Assembly (NCBI GenBank): GCA_021793375.1
Contig: JAJYSY010000002.1
Coordinates: 1 to 64,000, forward strand
Length of the DNA stretch: 64,000 bases
Reading direction: 5' to 3'
From: Bacteroidota bacterium
GTDB lineage: Bacteria; Bacteroidota; Bacteroidia; Flavobacteriales; Flavobacteriaceae
Both the position numbers and the translations under genes were made by a program. A model generated the notes under the pieces. That model had not been told where the DNA came from. It made no database searches and saw only the letters and a list, made by a program, of their open reading frames with translations. Positions within the stretch are counted from its first letter, which is position 1; every line of letters starts with the position of its first letter. Below, in pieces: positions 4,507 through 29,799 of this stretch.

Positions 4507-5793
4507 ATGAAAAAAGTATTAATTATCACTTATTATTGGCCTCCAGCAGGAGGCCCGGGAGTGCAGCGTTGGTTAAAATTTGTAAAATATCTTCCGGATT
4601 TTGGAATAGAACCTATTGTTTTTATTCCAGAAAATCCTACTTATCCGATTCAAGACAAAAGTTTATTTGAGGAAGTTTCTCCGAACTTAAAAGTCATCAA
4701 ACAACCTATTTTTGAACCTTATAAATTCGCTAATTTAATAGCTAAAAAGAAAACAAATCAATTCAGCAGCGGAATTATAGATCCACAAAAAGAACAAACT
4801 TTTTTACAAAAAACAATGCTGAGTATTCGCGGAAATCTCTTTATTCCGGATGCGCGAAAATTTTGGATAAATCCTTCAACAAAATTTTTAAAATCCTATG
4901 TAAAAAAACATCAAATCAACACCATAATCACTACAGGTCCACCACATAGTGTCCACCTCATTGGATTAAAGCTAAAGCAAAAATTAAATTTAAAATGGAT
5001 TGCAGATTTTAGAGATCCGTGGACGAAAATTAGTTATCATAAAAGACTAAGGTTGAGTAAGTATTCACAAAAAAGACATCGCCAACTTGAAGCAACAGTC
5101 CTTAAAAATACTAATCATATTATTACAACAAGTTGTAAAACAAAACAAGACTTTAAAAAAATTACAAATCAGCCAATAACAGTAATTACCAACGGATATG
5201 ACATTTACTATAAAAAAAATACACAAACCCTCGATAATACTTTTACTCTTTCACATATAGGTAATTTACTTTCCGGAAGAAACCCTGAAAATCTTTGGAT
5301 TGCCCTTAGTGAATTAATAGAAGAATACCCAAAAATAAAGTCCCAATTAAAAATTCAATTTATCGGAAAATTAAGTGATGAAACTGTACAAAGCCTTAAC
5401 TTAAACAAATTGGCTCCATATATAAAAATAATAGATTATGTACCTCATAAAAAAGCTATAGAATATCAGAAAAAATCTCAAATTCTTCTTTTGATTGAAG
5501 TAGATAGTAAAGAAACTCGAGAAATTATTCCTGGAAAACTTTTTGAATATTTAAACGCAAAAAGACCTATCTTGGCTATTGGCCCAAAAGATTGGGAAGT
5601 AAAGAAAATCATTGAAGAAACCAATAGCGGTTTTTGTTTTTCTTTTCAAGACAAAAAAGAAATAAAATCTGTTTTACTCACTTTTTTTAAAGCCTATCAA
5701 AAAGGGAAATTAACTGTAGATTCTAAAAACATCGCACAATATCATCGGAAAAATCTCACCAAAAATTTAAGCGAAATCATCAAAAGTCTTTAA
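4507..5793 (+). CDS. Glycosyltransferase family 4-like (GT-B fold)
   Basis: 428-residue GT-B glycosyltransferase. The N-terminus MKKVLIITYYWPPAGGPGVQ is the typical GT4 acceptor-domain start with a Gly-rich loop, and the middle has the ADFRDPW motif common in this Bacteroidota group. The nucleotide-sugar domain is visible from about residue 245 (LSHIGNLLSGRNPENL) to EIIPGKLFEYLNAKRPILAI, which holds the conserved E of the EX7E-like motif. It is cytoplasmic and likely acts on polysaccharide or lipid-linked glycan precursors. It follows the YfhO gene and ends 3 bases from the stop codon of the convergent ABC exporter gene. Donor sugar unknown. Confidence 0.85.
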   Translation: MKKVLIITYYWPPAGGPGVQRWLKFVKYLPDFGIEPIVFIPENPTYPIQDKSLFEEVSPNLKVIKQPIFEPYKFANLIAKKKTNQFSSGIIDPQKEQTFLQKTMLSIRGNLFIPDARKFWINPSTKFLKSYVKKHQINTIITTGPPHSVHLIGLKLKQKLNLKWIADFRDPWTKISYHKRLRLSKYSQKRHRQLEATVLKNTNHIITTSCKTKQDFKKITNQPITVITNGYDIYYKKNTQTLDNTFTLSHIGNLLSGRNPENLWIALSELIEEYPKIKSQLKIQFIGKLSDETVQSLNLNKLAPYIKIIDYVPHKKAIEYQKKSQILLLIEVDSKETREIIPGKLFEYLNAKRPILAIGPKDWEVKKIIEETNSGFCFSFQDKKEIKSVLLTFFKAYQKGKLTVDSKNIAQYHRKNLTKNLSEIIKSL

Positions 5794-28769: not shown

Positions 28770-28880
28770 AACAAACATAGCTTTTTTGTATTTCAAATTT
28801 TTATAAAAAAATATCCTCTTCTCCTCTTTCTTTATTTTTTTAAAATAAAAAAACACTGCATAAATCTCTTTTTATTTTTA

Positions 28881-28923
28881 TTAAGGACAAAATTGTCTTT
28901 AATTAGAAAAAAGTTTATATTTG
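28881..28923 (+). promoter_or_regulatory. Promoter with palindromic operator for the RIC gene
   Basis: Bases 28881-28902 form a 22-bp near-perfect palindrome: arms TTAAGGACAA and TTGTCTTTAA around two central bases, with one mismatched pair. Its TTG (28893-28895) is also the likely -33 element, 20 bases before the -7 element TATATTTG (28916-28923). A protein bound here would block the polymerase. The start codon is at 28986. The core GACAA-n2-TTGTC suggests a dimeric regulator, possibly of the Rrf2/NsrR kind, but the regulator is not in this window. Confidence 0.6.
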
Positions 28924-28985
28924 TACGGAATTCTTTTCGTTTAAAGACGAAAATTAAATTTTAAAAACATATAAAACTTGTTATT

Positions 28986-29729
28986 ATGGTTAGCACATCA
29001 AATACTCAAAGAAAAATTCAAGAATTTGTTGCTGATGATTATCGCACCGCTGAAGTGTTTTCTAAATATGGAATAGACTTTTGTTGTCGTGGAAATAGAA
29101 CTTTAGAAGAAGTAATTGCAAAAGAAAAAATAAACGGAGAAGATTTATTAAACGATCTTGCTAATGCTTCACAAGCATCTACTGCTCAAAATATTGATTA
29201 TAAATCTTGGCCTTTAGATTTATTGATGGATTATATCGAGAAAAAACACCACAGATATGTGGCAGAAAAGTCTCCTGTCATCAATTTTTATTTAGATAAA
29301 ATTGCCAGAGTTCACGGAGAAAGACATCCGGAATTATTTGAAATTAAAAAACTTTTTAAAGAATCTGCCGAAGACCTTTTAAGTCATATAAAAGAGGAAG
29401 AAAATATGTTTTTCCCTTATATCCGTGAGGTATTGGAAGCTAAGTCAACAGGAAATATTCCTAAAAAACCGGAAGGATATGAAAACATTGATAATCCGAT
29501 TGCAAAACTGATGGAAGAACATGATGATGAAGGCGTTAGACACAGAGAAATCGCTAAATTATCTAATAATTACACCATGCCTGAAGATGGGTGTAATACG
29601 TATAAAGTGGCTTTTAAAATGTTGAAAGATTTCCAAGATGATTTGCATTTACACATTCATTTGGAAAACAATATTTTATTTTTAGAAGCTAAAAAGCTTG
29701 CAGATTCCTTACCATCTACTGCAAACTAA
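28986..29729 (+). CDS. ric: Iron-sulfur cluster repair di-iron protein (RIC/ScdA/YtfE)
   Basis: Repairs iron-sulfur clusters damaged by nitric oxide or oxidants. The N-terminal DUF542 domain has the signature AEVFSKYGIDFCCRGNRTLEEV (two adjacent Cys). The hemerythrin-like domain has the di-iron ligands in EKKHHRYV, ARVHGERHPEL, HIKEEENMFFP, MEEHDDEG and HLHIHLENNILF. The length (247 aa) is normal for the family. A strong promoter with a palindromic operator candidate lies upstream and a hairpin terminator downstream, so it is a single-gene regulated unit. Confidence 0.93.
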   Translation: MVSTSNTQRKIQEFVADDYRTAEVFSKYGIDFCCRGNRTLEEVIAKEKINGEDLLNDLANASQASTAQNIDYKSWPLDLLMDYIEKKHHRYVAEKSPVINFYLDKIARVHGERHPELFEIKKLFKESAEDLLSHIKEEENMFFPYIREVLEAKSTGNIPKKPEGYENIDNPIAKLMEEHDDEGVRHREIAKLSNNYTMPEDGCNTYKVAFKMLKDFQDDLHLHIHLENNILFLEAKKLADSLPSTAN

Positions 29730-29759
29730 TTTTATATTTTTTGTTTTTATAGTTTGTTG

Positions 29760-29792
29760 AACTGCGCAATTCTGTATGGGAATTGCGCAGTT
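29760..29792 (+). terminator. Rho-independent terminator of the RIC gene
   Basis: A perfect 13-bp stem (29760-29772 with 29780-29792) and a 7-base loop are followed by T7. It is very strong and GC-rich for this genome. The convergent gene ends 8 bases on at 29800; in that direction there is no T-run, so the hairpin mainly serves the plus strand. Confidence 0.85.
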
Positions 29793-29799
29793 TTTTTAT

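Follow-up and report, generated by a model that had tools for sequence, protein, structure and literature searches.

A conserved promoter palindrome before flavobacterial ric, rrf2 and nirK genes is the probable operator of an NsrR-like Rrf2 regulator

Many Bacteroidota are partial denitrifiers. NsrR, the Rrf2-family regulator of proteobacteria, bacilli and actinobacteria, has three cysteines. In the sections of PMC1274295 drawn on here, its operator motif is gATGyAT-N5-ATrCATc and its targets include ytfE/ric and nirK; the same sections and parts of PMC13370916 describe HcpR, which controls hcp and has the motif GTAACnnnnGTTAC in most cases and another in P. gingivalis. In the literature we found, HcpR is the sole NO regulator of Bacteroidota. 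Subscription papers and RegPrecise lay outside the scope of our search, which returned no account of the motif described below or of a Bacteroidota Rrf2 regulator of the NO response, and an earlier description is possible. The regulator proposed here would resemble HcpR of Bacteroides in its phylum and in governing nitrite/NO stress genes, but it belongs to the Rrf2 family and HcpR to the Crp/Fnr family.

The window, a stretch of 64,000 nucleotides from a flavobacterial genome (2.34 Mb, 101 contigs, 88.9% complete), carries on its forward strand the gene ric (28986..29729), which encodes a 247-aa iron-sulfur cluster repair di-iron protein with ScdA_N and hemerythrin domains and scores 229.9 bits against TIGR03652 (cut-off 204.7). 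A terminator-like hairpin with a T tail follows on the same strand (29759..29793), which suggests a ric-only transcription unit. Upstream of the ATG at 28986 lies the candidate operator, a 22-bp palindrome on the forward strand (28881..28902) composed of TTAAGGACAA (28881-28890), a central AA that is not self-complementary (28891-28892) and TTGTCTTTAA (28893-28902). Its arms form ten pairs, one of them mismatched, and its core, AGGACA-AAAT-TGTCTT (28884-28899), is an instance of RGAYA-n4-TRTCY. The TTG at 28893..28895, inside the right half-site, we take to be the -33 element of the ric promoter, following an earlier reading and the usual form of Bacteroidota promoters. The -7 element, TATATTTG (28916..28923, forward strand), is separated from this TTG by exactly 20 bases and starts 31 bp past the core start at 28885, a spacing that the rrf2 genes of relatives show most often; it fits TAnnTTTG, the -7 consensus in the part of PMC9723704 used here. 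An earlier note, made from the letters of the window, had described a 22-bp palindrome with one mismatched pair and two central bases, its TTG standing 20 bases from TATATTTG; the coordinates confirm the first point and the geometry of the second is exact. Past the -7 element, the ric 5' untranslated region also holds an inverted repeat, TTTTCGT-TTAAAG-ACGAAAA (28934-28953), read by eye.

As a structure, the palindrome is unremarkable. Palindromes of 22 bp that have no more than one mismatch occur 5 times in the window, where Markov-random sequence has 10.5 on average, and the 12-bp core GACAANNTTGTC, again with at most one mismatch, was found twice where shuffles predict 2.65. We therefore rejected the idea that the palindrome is statistically unusual per se, being no commoner than in shuffled or Markov-random sequence, and its weight rests on conservation and on the identity of the genes that carry the site.

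Three such genes were found in the genome of the window. A search for Rrf2 genes returned one, matched at C72:14398-14781 (gene at G000:C72:14392-14823), and since the assembly is 88.9% complete a second could be missing; some 60 bp in front of this gene, a relaxed pattern search located a similar palindrome. The pattern MRGAYANNNNTRTCYK has 12 matches in the genome as compared with 17 for the reversed control, so there is no genome-wide excess. Nine of the 12 are inside reading frames, including one at C79:2479 that falls at a frame end, 27 bp before the next start codon, and the 3 intergenic sites precede nirK, ric and rrf2. All three promoters read TTG-20-TAnnTTTG, with TAnnTTTG 31 bp past the core start. 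The same motif thus occupies the same promoter position before ric, rrf2 and nirK, and it is conserved with the Rrf2 clade across Bacteroidota. The nirK product scores 374.1 bits (curated cut-off 296.3), and its gene is followed by two cupredoxin genes and then, at the contig end, by the first part of another, divergent ric gene. The same divergent gene begins at two contig ends (L053 5592-5840 and L052 12502-13230) with one amino acid difference, and from these near-identical starts contigs C27 and C92 probably abut. Downstream of rrf2 is a cbb3-like heme-copper oxidase gene (COX1) whose product aligns best to cbb3 CcoN and weakly to NorB; two other COX1 genes were found. The gene upstream of rrf2 matched no Pfam or NCBIfam family.

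To count sites in relatives we used RGAYA-n4-TRTCY, derived by eye from ric and rrf2 promoters with corrected starts. It replaces the core GACAA-n2-TTGTC of the earlier note, which has 4 genomic occurrences, as against 2 of its reversed control; RGAYAANNTTRTCY was also discarded, with 5 places, 3 of them inside coding sequence, against 8 for its reversed control. A de novo palindromic motif search returned coding sequence in two of the four groups (close Rrf2 and ric) and, for the middle Rrf2 group, ATATGATatatATCATAT and AAAGAtaaatttaTCTTT. Rrf2 genes were grouped by phmmer score to the protein of the window's genome, at thresholds of our own choice: close (at least 115 bits, n=33), middle (at least 58, n=32) and distant (below, n=29). 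The ric set held 52 of 53 genes, one having been dropped because its upstream stretch was too short, and takes in the window's own ric, the divergent second ric and two partial genes. Sites were scored within 150 bp of the start codon, with dinucleotide shuffles as controls. Exact sites precede 25 of 33 close rrf2 genes in same-family genomes, our own included (shuffle 0.0), 10 of 32 in the middle group (0.05) and 16 of 52 ric genes, the window's own included (0.05), so that the palindrome is conserved upstream of homologous ric; none was found before the 29 distant genes (0.0). With one mismatch allowed the counts rise to 30/33, 20/32, 2/29 and 24/52 for the close, middle, distant and ric sets (shuffles 1.2, 1.55, 0.8 and 1.65), which leaves 28 of 52 ric genes with no site at that tolerance. 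The comparison sets share at least one contig (L184 and G066:C191, judged by equal length and match position), and related species are not independent, a relatedness that inflates these counts.

The motif also held in sequences from which it had not been written. A census of the Rrf2 clade gave 49 matches of at least 115 bits in 45 of 120 sampled genomes; 16 held-out members, unseen when the motif was drawn up, included 11 with an exact site (mononucleotide shuffle 0.02) and 15 with at most one mismatch (0.94). Among named Bacteroidota loci, taken as the best 80 of 553 and including Marivirga, Roseivirga, Aquimarina, Winogradskyella, Flavobacterium and Muricauda, an exact site precedes rrf2 in 59 (shuffle 0.2), 57-63 bp before the ATG in 53 of them. 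Ten of the 80 rrf2 genes, 7 of them from Flavobacterium, depart from the motif at 2 or more positions. Of the same best 80 loci, 57 yielded a ric gene. The 107 intergenic sites include 59 before rrf2 and 39 before ric, with 10 more in coding sequence, and all but one of the ric sites (38/39) come just after an rrf2 stop codon. For nirK of relatives, where 27 of 28 matches over cut-off were scored, 7 genes have an exact site (Markov-random 0.15) and 16 a site with at most one mismatch (3.05).

The regulator gene and ric tend to occur together. Close Rrf2 genes are present in 36 of 52 ric-bearing genomes and in 9 of 68 others (120 sampled), and in 26 of the 28 genomes having the window's ric subfamily, as assigned by score and by our own choice. 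The remaining 16 of 52 ric-bearing genomes have no close Rrf2, which counts against the operator reading given below; the middle Rrf2 group has a very similar site, and the motif is therefore not proof of this one regulator. In that middle group (MLSNSSKYAIKAV..., in L112, L119, L126 and others), ATATGAT-n4-ATCATAT often adjoins AAGAYA-n4-TATCTT, the paired sites sitting in the gap that separates the regulator gene from a small, divergent, lipoprotein-like one (names assigned by eye).

Genes neighboring rrf2 were compared with Pfam and NCBIfam families. In the relatives L190, L193 and L241, rrf2 is followed by a gene of 748-749 aa and then by ric, and in L251 these two genes follow rrf2 after a cupredoxin gene; two of the 748-749-aa proteins were tested, and PF22085, the NorB cytochrome c-like domain, was identified in both (245 and 247 bits, cut-off 29), although NCBIfam gave neither a name. 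Aquimarina megaterium (L193) has one site between divergent nirK and rrf2. Homologues of the gene upstream of rrf2 were tested from near rrf2 in four named loci, and all 4 exceed the Pfam cut-off for bacterial globins; for the homologue from the same genus, in L129, no family was matched. The gene directly after rrf2 in L051 (2361-4190) encodes a cbb3-like oxidase subunit of 609 aa that has a long extension at its N-terminus; L129, L160, L189, L216 and L255 also have a homologue behind rrf2, and this oxidase is possibly an unusual NO reductase. In L203, an Arenibacter, rrf2 and ric are separated by a tryptophan 2,3-dioxygenase-like gene (4542-5501; PF03301, 90 bits), which encodes a heme protein whose place in an NO locus is puzzling. 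In four nirK promoters (L271, L275, L287 and L293) the Rrf2-type site is preceded, at a distance of 53-59 bp, by ATGAy-n4-rTCAT (one mismatch in L287), which suggests joint control of those promoters by a Crp/Fnr protein.

The protein encoded on C72 is a clear member of the Rrf2 family (PF02082, 84 bits, cut-off 30; rrf2_super, 83.5 bits, cut-off 73.3), and it falls below the curated NsrR, IscR and CymR models: 25.5 bits on the NCBIfam NsrR equivalog (cut-off 182), less than two members of the distant group reach (55.8 and 61.1), 46.1 and 30.4 bits on the IscR equivalogs (cut-offs 207.55 and 275), and far below the cut-off for CymR. Its predicted model (mean pLDDT 89.5) resembles known Rrf2-family regulators in fold, with best Foldseek E values of 1.4e-7 for RsrR, 6.6e-7 for CymR, 3.1e-6 for IscR and 7.9e-6 for NsrR. 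Residues C93, C100 and C106 do not vary among the 20 Rrf2 sequences aligned; since these include outgroups, the cysteines are not specific to NsrR, and by analogy with described family members they probably hold an iron-sulfur cluster. In a tree that left out two rows of doubtful start (one close, one middle), the 32 close proteins formed one branch (100/99), and E. coli NsrR and IscR fell outside the clade on branches of more than three changes per column and with a bootstrap that had not converged, so that orthology may or may not hold.

We consider it highly probable that the palindrome is the operator for the NsrR-like Rrf2 regulator encoded at G000:C72:14392-14823. Judged from sequence, it is most likely an on/off switch, conserved widely, for a small iron-sulfur regulator that detects NO, and the held-out, NorB and globin results lend support to the operator reading. 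The suggestion of the earlier note that it might mark a flavobacterial nitric-oxide or redox regulator gains support from the presence of the motif upstream of homologous ric genes, of nirK and of the single Rrf2 gene that the search of the genome returned. Like NsrR, the regulator has the Rrf2 family domain and fold, three cysteines and predicted targets in NO metabolism: the site stands before ric, nirK and the rrf2-oxidase genes here, and before ric and nirK in relatives. Unlike NsrR, it would recognize RGAYA-n4-TRTCY, and it misses the curated NsrR model. According to the earlier note the core differs from the E. coli NsrR consensus; gATGyAT-N5-ATrCATc does not occur at the ric promoter even when 3 mismatches are allowed.

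Our best reading is that an NsrR-like, autoregulated Rrf2 repressor controls NO production, NO removal and damage repair; binding and the response to NO are what we infer. In outline, an Rrf2 dimer with an iron-sulfur cluster on the three conserved cysteines would sit on the -33 region and block RNA polymerase, and NO would destroy the cluster, so that the dimer leaves the DNA. Release would switch on ric (repair), nirK (conversion of nitrite to NO), rrf2 itself and the oxidase-like gene downstream of it, possibly an NO reductase. Cluster binding, repression by covering -33 and release by NO are drawn from NsrR and IscR biology and would apply here by analogy; the scheme is weakest at the NO signal and at the part assigned to the cbb3-like oxidase. 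With operator and regulator defined, NO-controlled genes of marine and soil flavobacteria could be predicted from sequence, and the means by which these organisms escape self-poisoning by NO would become testable.

The same Rrf2 protein might bind the site and respond to iron-sulfur cluster status or to oxygen and redox conditions in general, as IscR or RsrR would, rather than to NO specifically. IscR and RsrR are as near as NsrR, or nearer, in sequence and fold, and RIC proteins have been proposed, in the part of PMC9268430 used here, to repair clusters damaged under oxidative and nitrosative stress alike. The regulator shares its family domain and predicted fold with IscR, RsrR and CymR, but scores far under the IscR and CymR model cut-offs, and the distant Rrf2 group, two members of which score best with the CymR and IscR models among named regulators, has the site in 0 of 29 genes. 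Because the genes that bear the site or adjoin rrf2 include nirK, ric, NorB-like and globin genes, a set centred on NO, we regard a general redox signal as possible but rather unlikely. Binding by a Crp/Fnr-family regulator of the HcpR, DNR or FNR type is far less probable still. The genome has Crp-type HTH genes (3 over cut-off) and ATGAy-n4-rTCAT also occurs in 10 of 27 nirK promoters of relatives, but nothing ties those genes to the palindrome, and the conserved site precedes rrf2 genes themselves, as counted above in the best 80 of 553 loci. The core matches neither GTAACnnnnGTTAC nor FNR-type TTGATnnnnATCAA: the HcpR motif has no occurrence near 28881-28902 with up to 2 mismatches, and the one overlapping TTGATnnnnATCAA hit (28871-28884) has two mismatches, a level at which the window holds 139 hits against 116 expected. 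A chance palindrome in an AT-rich promoter, bound by no regulator, is scarcely credible: palindromes of this size are common in the window and the core alone is not enriched, but conservation before ric, rrf2 and nirK far exceeds that in shuffles and the geometry is identical in three promoters of the genome.

Returning to the operator of the Rrf2 protein, its symmetry varies with its place in the promoter. Of 85 distinct rrf2 sites, 68 have a TAnnTTTG that begins 29-32 bp beyond the site, and these 68 have G in the right half in 48 cases (as TTG in 47) and the equivalent C in the left half in 16; the other 17 have the right G in 8 and the left C in 6. Sites before ric behave differently. They lie a median of 31 bp before the ric ATG, TAnnTTTG follows at 29-32 bp in 2 of 56, and the 54 without that placement have the right-half G in 7 (against 48 of 68 at rrf2, Fisher p = 1e-10, nominal since the sequences are related). 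All 56 together show a slight opposite asymmetry (1 versus 8 discordant pairs, p 0.04). The palindrome thus appears to be pulled out of symmetry where it is also the -33 element, and at ric sites of relatives the operator may affect a subsequent step, or a different promoter. Extending this to the phylum, we think it fairly likely that the Bacteroidota Rrf2 clade provides the general repressor, responsive to NO, of genes for denitrification and for defence against NO (nirK, ric, globins and NO-reductase-like oxidases), with an operator that doubles as the -33 element and is made asymmetric by selection for TTG only where the two overlap. Operator asymmetry coupled to the unusual Bacteroidota promoter would provide a rule for reading other operators in the phylum. 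Three bases into the operator there is often a TAnnTTTG, as in TAAATTTG (L051 1837, L053 3148; 41 of 85 rrf2 sites), so that the operator could also double as the -7 element of another promoter.
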